A stretch of 64,000 bases of DNA, from positions 1 through 64,000 of the forward strand of contig CAMVBJ010000007.1 of the NCBI GenBank assembly GCA_947165675.1, written 5' to 3'. Below are positions 59,892-64,000 of this stretch, piece by piece. The notes beneath the pieces were generated by a model that was given only the letters and a program-made list of their open reading frames with translations, had not been told where the DNA came from and searched no databases. This stretch comes from an uncultured Prevotellaceae bacterium (lineage in GTDB: Bacteria > Bacteroidota > Bacteroidia > Bacteroidales > Muribaculaceae). Position 1 is the stretch's first letter. Every line of letters starts with the position of its first letter. Made by a program: the position numbers and the translations under genes.

Positions 59892-60092
59892 ATGCTATTG
59901 AGGTCAATGGCTGTGGCTGTCTTGATGCCCCATAAGGGCGATGACAACATTTGGTACTTCGACACCGATGTCTATCAGATCGAGGGTGTGGCTCGATTCT
60001 ACATTGGCCTGGCTAACCACATCAAAATCCTCAATGCTCACGAACTGGAAAAGTTCATAGCGTTCTTCGTCAAAGAAAACCTGCAAAAATAA
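59892..60092 (+). pseudogene. WYL-regulator C-terminal fragment
   Basis: The last ~35 codons (GVARFYIGLANHIKILNAHE, then LEKFIAFFVKENLQK) resemble the C-terminal domain of WYL-type transcription regulators. The DNA-binding N-terminus is absent. It lies just upstream of the AT-rich cassette and is probably a remnant of a former neighbour. Confidence 0.4.
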
Positions 60093-60129
60093 AGTGAACG
60101 GATTTATTCCAGAATTCCGATATTAGTTG

Positions 60130-60137
60130 TAACTTTG
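60130..60137 (+). promoter_or_regulatory. -7 promoter box of the AT-rich three-gene cassette
   Basis: TAACTTTG matches exactly, 30 nt before the first gene at 60167. No -33 TTTG was found at the usual distance. Confidence 0.5.
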
Positions 60138-60166
60138 CATTTTATCTGATTGATATATAATCATAC

Positions 60167-61135
60167 ATGTCAAACAATAAATCATACACTTTACCACAGT
60201 GGCTTGATAAAATAATCTTTGATGATTTCCAAGCCATATATGAGCCAAGTCCTTCTGAGGTTGTATATAATCCAGATCAACCTTATGACTTCGTAAAGCT
60301 ATATCTTGGAACGTACTTTCCTAGAAGCTATGCAGAGGCTTATGGAATTATATCTCATTTACTATCTTTTGATAAGTTTCGTCAACATTATATTGAGCTT
60401 GAAGAGGTTAATTTACTCGATTTTTGTTGTGGAACTGGCGGTGAATTAGTTGGAACGATTTGTGCTTTACAATCACATCTTCCAAACCTCCAACGTGTTA
60501 ACGTTGACGCTTTCGATGCAAATCCAGATGCTATTCGCTTTTTGTATCACCTTTCAGAAGCAATAAATAGGACAAATGATATGCGAGTTATAATGAATAT
60601 TAACCCCCAATGCATCTTTATTGAAGCCGAACGCGAGATTGATGACATCGTAAATTTGACTAATGTCCAATATCATTTTATGATGTCATTTAAAGCCATT
60701 AATGAATTTGTTCAGCATAAAACATTCGACACCAATGCGTATGAACTTGTTGCAACAAAACTGTTCCAGTTAATGTCTCAGTACGGGGTTTTCATTATGA
60801 CTGATGTCTCAACAAGACTTAACGATAGTAATCTTTTTTATCCTCAAGTCATGAACAAAGGCTTGAATAATTTTCTAAGATCATCATCTTTATACAAAAG
60901 CATCATACCTGCGGCTTGTTTTCATCATGAAAATAACTGCCCTGGTTGTTATATGCAGGACACGTTTTACGTCTCTCATAGCAAGAAGAGTCATGATGCC
61001 AGTAAAGTGGTATATCGTGTCGTATGTAAGTCTGATTTCGCTAACGAAATAATGTCAAACTCTACACCCTGTCAATGTAGAGCGACAAATCAATTTGCAG
61101 AAAAGAATTTACCATATAATAATATATGTCATTAG
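60167..61135 (+). CDS. Rossmann methyltransferase-like protein with Cys-rich end (cassette gene 1)
   Basis: This 322-residue protein has a central SAM-binding-like motif LLDFCCGTGGELVG near residue 88 and VDAFDANPDAIRF near residue 117. A C-terminal cysteine-rich part follows (HHENNCPGCYMQ near 255, CQCRA near 305). The start fits MSNNKSYTLPQWLDKIIFDD. The motif order resembles Rsm22-type methyltransferases, but that is weak. It is AT-rich unlike its neighbours and overlaps the helicase gene by 10 bp. The methylated target, if any, is unknown. Confidence 0.65.
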   Translation: MSNNKSYTLPQWLDKIIFDDFQAIYEPSPSEVVYNPDQPYDFVKLYLGTYFPRSYAEAYGIISHLLSFDKFRQHYIELEEVNLLDFCCGTGGELVGTICALQSHLPNLQRVNVDAFDANPDAIRFLYHLSEAINRTNDMRVIMNINPQCIFIEAEREIDDIVNLTNVQYHFMMSFKAINEFVQHKTFDTNAYELVATKLFQLMSQYGVFIMTDVSTRLNDSNLFYPQVMNKGLNNFLRSSSLYKSIIPAACFHHENNCPGCYMQDTFYVSHSKKSHDASKVVYRVVCKSDFANEIMSNSTPCQCRATNQFAEKNLPYNNICH

Positions 61136-62142
61136 ATACTTTAACACCAGATAGGCATCAGCAGATTATCATCAATATGTCTGCCGAAAGAACTGCAATT
61201 GTAAAAGGTATTGCAGGTTCAGGAAAATCCTTGACTTTACTAAAAAAAGCCAAACAGGTTTCTACAATCACAAACTCGTATGCGATTATTGTTTATACTA
61301 AGTCATTAAAACAGTTCTTCGTTGACGAACTCGCAGAAATTGGTGAAAACGAAAACCACGTTTATTATTTTAGAGAATGGCAAAAATCAGACAAGCCAAA
61401 TGTTAAATATATGTTTGTCGATGAATGCCAAGATTTCAACTCCGAAGAAATTGATGACTTTTTACAACATGGACAATACTGTTGGTTCTTTGGTGATACC
61501 GATCAATCAATAATGGAATTTCCAAATCATTCAGTTCAGGCCGTAGAAGATACTGCAAGACAGATAGGTGTTCATCCTCAGAATTTAGGCATTAATCATC
61601 GGCTCACAATCGAGAATGCAAAAGTGGGAGAACATATAATCCCGGGCACTAGGCTTTCGTTTGCGTGCATTAATCATGGACCAAAACCAAGGTTGATAAA
61701 AACCGATTCTCAATTGGATAAAATCATAGAATTAGTTAATAATGGTTTGACCGATGTTGGTATTCTCGTATACTACAACACTCAAGTCGAATACATCCGA
61801 GACTATTTCCAAGCAAGAGGAATACCAGTACAATGGAAAAAGCAAGACGAAATGGATATTGACTTCAAGTCCACGAGTCCCAAAATAATTACATGGCATT
61901 GTGCTAAAGGGTTACAATTTAACGATGTATTTATTCCATGTTGTGGAATAGGAGAATACAAAGATTATGTTCCGTATTCTATTGACCCAATGATAGATAA
62001 ACAATCCGCATTGTATGTGGCCTCGACACGCCCAATTGAGAATTTATACCTATTATATACTAACAATCTGACCCCGCTTTTACCGCCATCAACATCAGCA
62101 ATATATTCTGGTAGAGGAGTAGGCGCAGCTGGCCCATTCTAA
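61126..62142 (+). CDS. SF1 (UvrD-like) helicase, short form (cassette gene 2)
   Basis: This 338-residue ATPase has Walker A GIAGSGKSLT near residue 28, Walker B MFVDECQDF near residue 102, FFGDTDQSI (motif III) near 125, GINHRLT (motif IV) near 157 and ITWHCAKGLQF (motif V) near 257. The last motif, YVASTRPIENLYLLYT, is near residue 300. It is much shorter than UvrD (about 720 residues) and lacks the long 1B/2B insertions. It is translationally coupled to gene 1 and lies 15 bp before gene 3, so the three probably work together. Confidence 0.75.
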   Translation: MSLDTLTPDRHQQIIINMSAERTAIVKGIAGSGKSLTLLKKAKQVSTITNSYAIIVYTKSLKQFFVDELAEIGENENHVYYFREWQKSDKPNVKYMFVDECQDFNSEEIDDFLQHGQYCWFFGDTDQSIMEFPNHSVQAVEDTARQIGVHPQNLGINHRLTIENAKVGEHIIPGTRLSFACINHGPKPRLIKTDSQLDKIIELVNNGLTDVGILVYYNTQVEYIRDYFQARGIPVQWKKQDEMDIDFKSTSPKIITWHCAKGLQFNDVFIPCCGIGEYKDYVPYSIDPMIDKQSALYVASTRPIENLYLLYTNNLTPLLPPSTSAIYSGRGVGAAGPF

Positions 62143-62157
62143 TAAATTTTGTCCGTT

Positions 62158-64000
62158 ATGAAGTATTATATAGCTACATCAAATCTGAATTTGGATAACA
62201 TTCTTCAATCAGAATGTATTCTTCCTTTCCCACACTATGGGCACAGAGTGTCGGGCTACAAAACTTTTGAACAAATAGAAGAGCTTAGACCTTTCTCTGG
62301 GGTGGTATTGTTTGCATTTCCTGTTTCGTTTGAGATCAACGACCCAGGAAGATATAATTACCCCCTGTTGATTGAATTTGAAGATGATAAACAGACATCT
62401 GATTTACAAAAGGTTGACACTATTGAAGGCGTGTATATATCCAGCCATCCACTGCAAATCACTCCATTGAATAGTCGATTCTATTTTTTCTCGGAAAACG
62501 CTTATACACTTTCATTAGTTAATACGAGAAGCAACAAAGCTATAAAGTATTATGATGAGTATCTCATCTACCCGACGGCATCGATGCTCCATCTTCGTTC
62601 CATGCCAAGGATTGAAACAAACGTTCATCCTGAGATTTCTGTTTTTGAAGATTCCCAGATAGACAAACAGAAAGGATCTATATATGCCTTTTTATTGGGA
62701 GCGAAACTGTGTGTAAGTAAGGAAATAGCGACTCAACTTAGATTGACTCAAGAGTTGTATAATATTCTGACTTCAATCATTTCTTCTCCTACTAGCTTCA
62801 ATGCTTTTGAGAAGAAATTGTCGCTACTTCTCAACGATTATCGAAAAGTTGACCCAATTGAGAAAAAGAGTCAAGAACGTTTCGATGCTAAATTTGACGA
62901 AGAGCTAGGAAGATTCAAATCTCTTAAAAGCTATTTAATCGATTTTTTGAAAAGAATAAATTGTTGGGATTATGTTTTCCAATCCTTGTGTCGGAAATGG
63001 AACTGTTCATTCCTTCCTTGCATTTCAAACTTTGTCACCGCAAACGACTTCTCAAGATTACGGGATATAATTGAAAATCATACAAATGAGACTTTTTCTG
63101 AATATACCCACACTTCAACTGGCGATATTAATGACATTACGATTAATGGTGATAATATTGAATTAAGAGGAGCTTCACTCATCAATATTGTTCTTAAAAA
63201 GATTATTGATAATTCCCTTACACCAGAAAACCTATCTGCTAATAGGCTTGAGTTCTATAATCTTGTTATGAAGGATATAGTAGTTCAACTAAAGAATCAG
63301 ATCGGGGAGGAGAATTGGGAAAACTCATTAGAGAGGTCTTATGTTAATAATCTCTATTCGTTTTTAAATGATCCGAGCTATGGTTTTTCAGTTAATGATA
63401 TTTCAAATGTTCAATTAAAATCAATAGCTGCGTTCATCATTAGAGGACATAACTTTAAAGATTACATCACATATCTAAGGATGGCTGAGTTTGAAGATTA
63501 TAGATATGCTATTACCTTATGGGGCTGCCTTCTTGGATATATGGAAATGAGTAAGGATGTGTTGTCTGACGTTATCTCTATTGATGTTTACAAGAAGATT
63601 TACAAAAAGATTTTTGGTTCGCCAATGTCTGTGATCACCAGTGATCCACCAAAGTCGATTGAAATAACTGATGACTTTGATGAAAGACTTTTCTCTAATC
63701 TCTTGGACGTTTGTAAATTCAAAGAGTCGTCAATGCTTGTTTCCATGCTTGTCCAAACGAAATTGAATCGTTCTGCTTCTATAGAAGAAGAATTAGAGGT
63801 AATATTAAACGATAAACCGTTTAAAAGAGCAAAAAAACAATGTGATGTTGCAAGAACAGCAATGAAGATTTACAGACTGCGGAATAAAGAGAATGAATTG
63901 AAACAGTTCTTAGAAAAAAGCAGTCTAACAAAAAATATACAGAGTAACATACTTGTTCTTCTTGGTTATTTCATACCTACAAAGAAAAGCAAGAAGAAAA
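62158..64000 (+). CDS. Large uncharacterised protein, cassette gene 3 (runs off the window)
   Basis: From the ATG at 62158 the frame is open to the window end (about 614 codons, no stop). It starts MKYYIATSNLNLDNILQSEC, and the first ~90 residues could be a substrate-binding module. The middle is rich in Leu, Lys, Asn and Asp without a known motif (KQKGSIYAFLLGAKLCVSKE, FEDYRYAITLWGCLLGYMEM). No membrane segment, Walker motif or HNH pattern was seen. It follows the helicase gene by 15 bp with the same AT-rich composition. The C-terminus is missing. Confidence 0.65.
   Translation, partial: MKYYIATSNLNLDNILQSECILPFPHYGHRVSGYKTFEQIEELRPFSGVVLFAFPVSFEINDPGRYNYPLLIEFEDDKQTSDLQKVDTIEGVYISSHPLQITPLNSRFYFFSENAYTLSLVNTRSNKAIKYYDEYLIYPTASMLHLRSMPRIETNVHPEISVFEDSQIDKQKGSIYAFLLGAKLCVSKEIATQLRLTQELYNILTSIISSPTSFNAFEKKLSLLLNDYRKVDPIEKKSQERFDAKFDEELGRFKSLKSYLIDFLKRINCWDYVFQSLCRKWNCSFLPCISNFVTANDFSRLRDIIENHTNETFSEYTHTSTGDINDITINGDNIELRGASLINIVLKKIIDNSLTPENLSANRLEFYNLVMKDIVVQLKNQIGEENWENSLERSYVNNLYSFLNDPSYGFSVNDISNVQLKSIAAFIIRGHNFKDYITYLRMAEFEDYRYAITLWGCLLGYMEMSKDVLSDVISIDVYKKIYKKIFGSPMSVITSDPPKSIEITDDFDERLFSNLLDVCKFKESSMLVSMLVQTKLNRSASIEEELEVILNDKPFKRAKKQCDVARTAMKIYRLRNKENELKQFLEKSSLTKNIQSNILVLLGYFIPTKKSKKK

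Follow-up and report, generated by a model that had tools for sequence, protein, structure and literature searches.

Organization and base composition of the locus

A putative promoter and three tightly packed genes lie at the end of the window, by which we mean the whole 64,000-nucleotide stretch that was analyzed (Table 1). The earlier note had described a 10-bp overlap between genes 1 and 2 and a 15-bp gap between gene 2 and the ATG of gene 3, and both distances were confirmed from the coordinates. It had also suggested extending the sequence to the stop of gene 3. Following the contig past the window placed this stop at position 64308, giving a protein of 716 aa from the ATG or 719 aa from an alternative TTG start at 62149. 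The end of gene 3 overlaps by 14 bp the start of a gene encoding a DUF1848 protein (gene 4), and the set described as three genes is actually one of four. The box upstream of gene 1 is presumably of the Bacteroidota -7 type.

Table 1. Features of the locus; positions beyond 64000 continue the numbering of the window along the contig.
Feature	Position	Strand	Description
Putative Bacteroidota -7 promoter box, TAACTTTG	60130..60137	+	~30 bp 5' of gene 1; read by eye
Gene 1	60167..61135	+	322 aa; class I SAM-dependent methyltransferase-like, C-terminal Cys cluster
Gene 2	61126..62142	+	338 aa; minimal SF1 (UvrD/Rep-type) helicase, by sequence
Gene 3, part in the window	62158..64000	+	ATG at 62158; stop beyond the window
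Gene 4 (DUF1848), outside the window	64295-65347		350 aa; PF08902, 1.9e-92

The cassette is AT-rich against GC-richer host genes, as had been noted: its GC content is 36.3%, versus 45.6% and 49.6% in the fetched flanks before and after it. Within the window, GC over 60001-64000 is 0.33-0.37, compared with 0.46-0.60 in the 1-kb bins of 13001-59000; further AT-rich bins lie near the start of the window. The claim that broken gene fragments adjoin the cassette holds on the downstream side, where a WYL-type regulator gene is truncated and aligns to the first 133 of the 346 residues of an intact one (61% identity). Upstream, the breakage of the two fragments is unproven, since no Pfam family matched either of them.

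Recurrence, spread, and variant replacement

Of 85 gene 1 relatives, 80 loci were kept; the gene 1 profiles that detected them had been seeded mainly with copies from operons, and thus the sample is biased. All four genes are on one strand in 66 of the 80 loci and follow the order 1-2-3-4 in 61, with median intergenic gaps of 4, 2, and -8 bp in the latter. Since the same order is kept in 61 of the 80 loci, chance is excluded. The earlier note had proposed a search for co-occurrence and would have given up its idea had the genes proved to be unrelated neighbors in related genomes; what emerged instead is a conserved operon. Among 393 genomes of the order, strong gene 1 matches are found in five and strong gene 3 matches in seven, with four genomes in common (hypergeometric probability 1.8e-7), after dropping six weak gene 1 matches (E 1e-4 to 9e-4) and one weak gene 3 match (G075). 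We consider it almost certain that the genes form a real four-gene functional unit.

The four genes do not always occur together. Gene 1 and the DUF1848 gene stand alone in 7 of the 80 loci, genes 2 and 3 are present without genes 1 and 4 adjoining in three of the seven genomes with gene 3 (loci L152-L154), and at a single locus (L094) no gene 4 was found within the remaining 5.8 kb. The distribution is patchy, with gene 1 or gene 3 in none of 36 same-genus relatives. Carriers are mainly Bacteroidota, among them Bacteroides xylanisolvens XB1A (L029), with outliers whose record titles label them as Clostridium, Olsenella, Desulfovibrio, and Helicobacteraceae. Plasmid searches with genes 1 and 3 returned no relatives, and the 44 pattern matches to gene 1 in viral contigs included none. 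In eight same-genus genomes the adjoining cation-efflux gene was inspected for an empty insertion site; the gene itself is conserved in them, and the downstream side was unmatched (one 71-bp match).

The four proteins diverge at very different rates, median amino acid identities over 1,770 pairs being 36.6, 37.6, 21.8, and 65.7% for genes 1 to 4 (identities and motif counts consider only proteins above a length limit; the identity set has 78, 69, 65, and 70 sequences, respectively). An example is a pair of loci, L034 and L066, at the same chromosomal site, which have both flanks in common at 79-95% DNA identity. Their DUF1848 proteins are 90% identical, versus 32, 26, and 15% for the products of genes 1, 2, and 3. 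Genes 1-3 have been exchanged as variants at one locus beside a conserved DUF1848 gene.

Predicted functions of the four proteins

The sequence of gene 2 is that of a minimal SF1 helicase, matching UvrD_C (8.7e-11) and Viral_helicase1 (2.5e-10) in Pfam, with Walker A and DExQD motifs kept in all 69 relatives of sufficient length. Gene 1 is predicted to be a class I SAM methyltransferase. No methyltransferase family in Pfam is matched by the copy in the window itself; among 36 relatives, picked so as to include long ones, 34 match Methyltransf_23 at E <= 0.5 (the best match is to Methyltransf_31, 2.5e-7), and the motif I glycines are invariant in 45 sequences. The matches are mostly to general methyltransferase, CheR, and GRAS models, not to DNA methyltransferases (N6_Mtase, 4/36). 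Some relatives of gene 1 carry a fused nuclease-type domain: NERD in 4 of the 36 (best 1.6e-8) and a Swt1-like HEPN in one (1.7e-4). The Cys-rich tail pointed out earlier is present in the window's copy, and its pattern recurs in only 20 of the 78 relatives of sufficient length. This C-terminal cluster, where it occurs, recalls the Rsm22/METTL17 Fe-S methyltransferase-like proteins; an Rsm22 identity was rejected, as only the Rossmann core aligns (39%, 47 columns).

Gene 4 is classified as radical-SAM-like. The cluster motif CxxxCxxC of radical SAM enzymes is found in all 70 DUF1848 relatives of sufficient length, and the window's protein has a weak match to the PA0069 radical-SAM family, far below the family cut-off (5.7e-4). 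Given that the motif is at the C-terminus, a circular permutation of radical SAM is suggested. Of the 393 Bacteroidales genomes, 77 have DUF1848 above the cut-off, compared with five for gene 1, and in 37 places hand-picked from the list of matches, not at random, most DUF1848 genes have no gene 1 and varied contexts. Thus, the role of DUF1848 may be a general one. It is also found fused to a methyltransferase, and alone in six plasmid and eight phage records; in one record of this set, MT835661.1, the locus lies between two phage-type integrases. DUF1848 is not named in the open-access literature searched.

Gene 3 had been described as a protein with no recognized domain. This holds for Pfam, where neither the window's protein nor 10 relatives had a match, and the part in the window matched no PADLOC model. 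The N-terminus aligns, in hhalign comparisons, with 2CompART, a domain that occupies the corresponding operon position in a parallel version of the system; 2CompART and 2CompARG are the Pfam families PF22546 and PF22545, "2-component system ADP-ribosyltransferase / ADP-ribose glycohydrolase". The probability is 55-60% with five 2CompART sequences and 34% with six, at E values of about 1e-4 to 4e-4, and the controls (reversed, unrelated-family, and 30 column-shuffled) all remain at or below 0.8%. Adding the sixth 2CompART sequence lowers the probability from 55% to 34%, two template sequences give 7.6%, and a profile of three divergent gene 3 relatives gives 1.6%. The PF22546 model itself has no match in the window's gene 3, in any of the 10 relatives, or elsewhere in its own genome. 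The N-terminal domain of gene 3 is probably a diverged 2CompART-like ADP-ribosyltransferase, a relation that rests on one profile comparison. For a glycohydrolase part, a second collinear alignment is non-significant (0.1-0.4%) and a PDB match has an E of 0.24. A DarT-like assignment is unsupported, with 0.4% in hhalign against a thin three-sequence DarT profile and no match to the DarT domain (PF14487) in the genome. Comparisons of genes 1 and 4, of gene 3, and of its N-terminus with PDB sequences gave nothing usable.

A parallel operon with 2CompART

All five over-threshold 2CompART genes lie in an operon of helicase, 2CompART, and a second methyltransferase (B), with DUF1848 before the helicase, either complete or, where the contig stops, as an end fragment. 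G180 was left out, as its gene is below the cut-off, has two stops, and is in no such operon (L224). These loci resemble the window's set in having DUF1848, an SF1 helicase, an ADP-ribosylation protein, and a methyltransferase, and differ in the methyltransferase family, in the gene order, and in that the 2CompART/2CompARG models recognize their protein and not the window's gene 3. Methyltransferase B aligns with one Rsm22 homologue (96%). The two operon versions, which differ in methyltransferase family, appear to share all four roles, with genes 1-3 swapping as a cassette beside a DUF1848 gene that stays conserved. In another genome, G440, the helicase is followed by 2CompART/2CompARG, a weakly methyltransferase-like protein (E 0.011), and then an AlkB-type 2OG-Fe(II) oxygenase (1.8e-19); DUF1848 was searched for in that genome without a match. 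The parallel ADP-ribosyltransferase protein was absent from the plasmids searched, and we found no paper behind the two Pfam names.

Comparison with known defense systems and genomic context

No PADLOC system matches the four-gene set as a whole (gene 3 entering the scan as its portion within the window), and no description was found in the open-access literature, in agreement with the earlier view that this exact set belongs to no described system. The closest links are partial. DUF1848 matches the PADLOC model RTasDUF1848 (PDLC03815, 5.5e-42) of the DRT reverse-transcriptase defense class, and is a defense-associated protein common to both; that class also lists an RT-associated NERD-helicase model, but a reverse transcriptase is expected there and none is among the window's four proteins. 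Gene 2 matches the GajB, NERD-helicase, Nhi, and AbiO models solely as a generic SF1 helicase. It has this domain in common with Gabija GajB, Nhi, AbiO, and the NERD+UvrD helicases; unlike those proteins, it is a stand-alone minimal helicase of 338 aa, and NERD, part of the helicase in the last of them, is here fused to gene 1 of some relatives. No model for the OLD-family nuclease GajA was matched by gene 1, by DUF1848, or by the portion of gene 3 in the window, and gene 1 matches no PADLOC model at all. DndF-type NTPases of phosphorothioate restriction are described as having variable N-terminal HEPN/NERD fusions on a conserved core (PMC10853773). The fusion pattern is that of gene 1 and the core protein is unrelated; no Dnd match was found among the four genes.

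For the neighborhood, two proteins of 130-700 aa per side were taken, leaving out duplicate loci, which gave 236 candidates; a random draw within a residue limit retained 148, and 146 were scanned after leaving out two more at contig starts. The commonest of the top 25 families listed are HATPase_c_4 (9) and SLFN_AlbA_2 (8; n = 146), raw counts from which no enrichment is claimed, and the listed summaries hold no strong defense signal. The neighboring genes are of mixed kind. In G125, the set adjoins type I restriction genes.

Proposed function and alternative explanations

Beyond what is established above on gene content, order, families, conservation, and the replacement of variants, a conflict or defense role for the set is likely. 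Such a role would fit the patchy distribution, the nuclease-domain fusions, the variant replacement, and the type I restriction neighbor. More specifically, we propose that the four genes are a mobile conflict system that diversifies rapidly and is most likely directed against phages, a reading to which we assign a probability of about 0.5. The mini-helicase would engage foreign or damaged nucleic acid, upon which the ADP-ribosyltransferase-like N-terminus of gene 3 would ADP-ribosylate a target, either the nucleic acid or a bound protein. This activity may be restrained by the helical region of gene 3, whose counterpart in the parallel version is an ADP-ribose glycohydrolase. A separable module, made up of the methyltransferase and DUF1848 (a pair that also exists without genes 2 and 3), would modify or repair the cell's own nucleic acid. 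The probability of this detailed mechanism is low, and it is somewhat more doubtful still that the set represents an undescribed immune class in which two writer/eraser chemistries (ADP-ribosyltransferase/glycohydrolase, and methyltransferase with radical-SAM DUF1848 or, in one genome, an AlkB-type enzyme) are built around one mini-helicase.

Among the alternatives, the strongest, although unlikely, is a cassette for nucleic-acid repair, where lesions found by the helicase are reversed or capped by the methyltransferase and DUF1848 (as an SPL/PA0069-like radical SAM protein), and ADP-ribose is added or removed by gene 3 in the course of repair. The invariant DUF1848 motif, its weak PA0069 match, and the seven loci with only gene 1 and DUF1848 point this way, as does the AlkB-type oxygenase following the operon in the genome where DUF1848 was not found, but that is one genome, and core repair does not usually show such fast divergence, single-locus variant replacement, patchiness, and fusions to nuclease domains. 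Less probable again is a restriction-modification-like system, with gene 1 and DUF1848 placing a methyl-derived mark on host DNA and the helicase and gene 3 attacking unmarked DNA. The modification pair is separable, genes 2 and 3 occur without it in L152-L154, and variants are exchanged as in restriction systems; against this, the four proteins contain no recognizable target-recognition or nuclease domain and gene 1 mostly matches models other than those of DNA methyltransferases. An ordinary accessory operon, for instance for RNA or small-molecule modification, whose swaps reflect recombination in a fast-evolving region, would suit the mixed neighbors and the many DUF1848 genes without gene 1. 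It is equally improbable; a replacement bounded by the starts of gene 1 and DUF1848, together with nuclease fusions, is hard to explain without diversifying selection.

If the conflict-system reading is correct, a multi-gene system found mainly in Bacteroidota would be added to the defense repertoire, DUF1848 would gain a functional setting, and ADP-ribosylation would be linked to nucleic-acid methylation or repair within one operon. The natural variants at one site, L034 and L066, allow a direct swap experiment, alongside the phage challenge of the cloned operon proposed in the earlier note.

A four-gene operon that runs past the window

An AT-rich cassette of three genes at 60167-64000 had been reported in an earlier note. 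Its three genes stand, but the set is not limited to three: the stretch is only the operon's beginning, and the rest lies on contig C7 beyond the window, where the stop of gene 3 was found and where the start of a fourth gene, encoding a DUF1848 protein, overlaps the end of gene 3 by 14 bp in the contig sequence. Pfam gave no significant match for the window's gene 1 or gene 3. Further along the contig lies a truncated regulator gene, which we take to be of the WYL type. Of the 346 residues of an intact gene at locus L164, near a DUF1848 gene, it aligns with the first 133 only (61%), and a longer homologue directly precedes genes 2-3 in locus L152.

Coordinates of the operon, the neighbouring regulator gene and related features at other loci
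Feature	Location	Strand	Remarks
Gene 1	60167-61135	+	
Gene 2, short SF1 helicase	61126-62142	+	Pfam UvrD_C, 8.7e-11
Gene 3	start 62158 (ATG) or 62149 (TTG), stop 64308	+	stop past window end
Gene 4, DUF1848	C7 64295-65347	+	past window; PF08902, 1.9e-92
Truncated regulator gene	C7 66835-67248 (L002:8036-8449)		beyond window
DUF1848 fusion frame	L163:5494-8190		single open frame: DUF1848, methyltransferase, BspA-type leucine-rich repeats
AlkB-type oxygenase in 2CompART operon	L226: 8784-10873 and 12787-16001		adjoining MksE/MukB-like condensin genes

Conservation of the four-gene set

The four genes are a real unit. The first gene 1 relative found outside the window is directly followed by a DUF1848 gene. 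When one genome per species was searched with five aligned gene 1 proteins as the query, 85 relatives came up, and 80 of these were retained as loci. Genes were called with profiles that started from five seeds for each gene and were then rebuilt, once, on the loci. As four of the five seeds were operon copies, this sample is biased towards operons; within it, genes 1-3 co-occur with gene 4, all on one strand, in 66 of the 80 loci. The order is 1>2>3>4 in 61 and 1>4>2>3 in five; gene 1 is followed by gene 4 alone in seven, a single locus (L094) has no gene 4, and a contig edge comes right after gene 1, 2 or 3 in six. In the 61 loci of the first order, the three junctions overlap or measure at most 30 bp in 56, 61 and 49 cases, respectively. 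Record titles place most loci in Bacteroidales; Flavobacteriaceae, Helicobacteraceae, Desulfovibrio, Clostridium and Olsenella are the labels of other records with full sets, and an archaeon has just gene 1 with DUF1848.

Within the order, strong matches to gene 1 and gene 3 were found in five and seven of 393 genomes, four being common to both (hypergeometric 1.8e-7, which is not an exact probability since the genomes are related). The three other gene 3 genomes (L152-L154) carry genes 2-3 where genes 1 and 4 are not adjacent, and neither gene 1 nor gene 3 was found in any of 36 same-genus relatives. Two genomes have two gene 1 loci each (L024 and L066; L031 and L092), the first pair being complete sets of four that differ in length class. 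In locus L021 (G302:C1), a second cassette copy of its genome, only a 94-aa remnant is left of gene 1 and DUF1848 is split; the genes upstream of this copy resemble DNA methyltransferases, as judged by eye.

Domains and motifs of genes 1, 2 and 4

In a chosen set of 36 gene 1 relatives, long ones included, Methyltransf_23 was matched at E<=0.5 in 34, the best family match being Methyltransf_31 (2.5e-7), with NERD in four (best 1.6e-8) and a Swt1-type HEPN domain in one (1.7e-4). NERD/HEPN fusions of this kind, which vary while the core is conserved and here occur in gene 1 relatives, are described in the literature for DndF (PMC10853773). By pattern search, 20 of 78 relatives have a C-terminal Cys cluster. 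Gene 2 has the Walker A and DExQD motifs in 69/69 relatives and motif VI in 62/69.

All 70 gene 4 proteins carry CxC...CxxxCxxC. At this motif the protein is weakly similar to the PA0069 radical-SAM family (5.7e-4), and one relative weakly matches Radical_SAM (0.011); as the motif is located at the C-terminus, we infer that DUF1848 is circularly permuted. In three loci with divergent DUF1848 proteins (L089, L093, L102) the termini are QMTLL, QLSLF or QLRFF, which to us look like sliding-clamp-binding motifs and might hint at replication-linked DNA work.

Divergence and replacement of variants

Judged from its sequences, the cassette evolves in the manner of a conflict system. For the 1770 pairs of loci in which all four genes are present, median protein identities are 36.6, 37.6, 21.8 and 65.7% for genes 1-4. 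In two Prevotellaceae genomes (L034 and L066), both flanks, ffh/SRP54 gene included, share 79-95% DNA identity; this likeness ends at the 5' end of gene 1 (9038) and resumes at the start of DUF1848 (13066), and the proteins of genes 1, 2 and 3 are 32, 26 and 15% identical, that of DUF1848 90%. The upstream gene at this site is common to six loci, among which gene 3 is related in L054, L061 and L066 (66-79%), other pairs having 15-38%. Between L056 and L079, genes 2-3 are 99 and 91% identical, gene 1 49%. The cassette adjoins type I restriction genes in genome G125. In the unannotated and unverified "Bacteriophage sp." record MT835661.1 it lies, with other genes, between two phage-type integrases.

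A parallel operon and the nature of gene 3

DUF1848 was above cut-off in 77 of 393 genomes of the order. Of 37 hand-chosen places where it occurs but gene 1 does not, ten have a second methyltransferase family (B) nearby; this family is fused to DUF1848 in L163 (a single 898-aa protein) and to an SF1 helicase in L170. L158 and L187 have the order DUF1848 > SF1 helicase > gene-3-like protein > methyltransferase B, the third protein being 2CompART (3e-25 and 1.5e-35), followed in L187 by 2CompARG (1.2e-27), with none reported for L158. 2CompART exceeded its cut-off in 5 of 247 genomes, each time in a DUF1848/helicase/methyltransferase B operon, with only the DUF1848 end remaining at the contig edge in L221 and L223 (in L221 below the family cut-off); a sixth, weak match (G180) has no such operon. 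Among 262 genomes of the phylum, one more was found, G440 (L226), with helicase > 2CompART/2CompARG > a weakly methyltransferase-like protein (0.011, missed by the methyltransferase B profile) > an AlkB-type 2OG-Fe(II) oxygenase (1.8e-19). DUF1848 was not found in the G440 genome search, in which controls were also silent, yet the same query matched 80 of 393 genomes.

Gene 3 had been said to have no recognised domain. This holds for Pfam, where scans of ten gene 3 proteins found 2CompART in none and the 55 relatives gave no family besides a Topo-type zinc ribbon in three (best 4.3e-10; C-terminal in the two examined), but profile comparison aligns its N-terminal ~110 residues with the same protein end of 2CompART proteins. 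The probability was 7.6% with two template sequences, 55-60% with five and 34% with six (E ~1e-4 to 4e-4 with five and six), against at most 0.8% for the controls (reversed alignment; profiles of genes 1, 2 and 4, methyltransferase B and DarT; 30 column shuffles). A three-sequence profile of the divergent L152-L154 proteins, clear homologues of gene 3 (100%), gave 1.6%. The gene 3 N-terminus is probably related to the 2CompART ADP-ribosyltransferase; a glycohydrolase part is possible, its collinear second alignment being non-significant.

Relation to described systems and proposed working

In PADLOC (2023), against which gene 3 was compared up to the window end only, neither gene 1 nor this part of gene 3 had a match, the helicase matches GajB and others as a generic relative only, and gene 4 matches (5.5e-42) a DUF1848 that is there RT-associated. 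No paper on DUF1848 or PF08902 was found among the open-access papers searched, nor, among the matches listed, any description of 2CompART or the combined terms. As the Pfam names 2CompART/2CompARG imply an earlier description of at least that part, some of the parallel version may be known already. PMC9503650 describes systems that are centred on a glycohydrolase and have a WYL or Nudix regulator; DUF1848 does not occur in its main text.

The families, order, conservation and replacement of the cassette are observed directly. As to its working, the helicase would recognise or open a target nucleic acid, gene 3 would ADP-ribosylate something within the helicase-nucleic acid complex. The methyltransferase and DUF1848, a pair that also occurs without genes 2 and 3, would modify or repair nucleic acid. 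The direction may be phage attack, self-marking or repair. DUF1848, together with the AlkB-type enzyme in the similar setting of one genome, suggests that a methyl-like or base adduct is removed.
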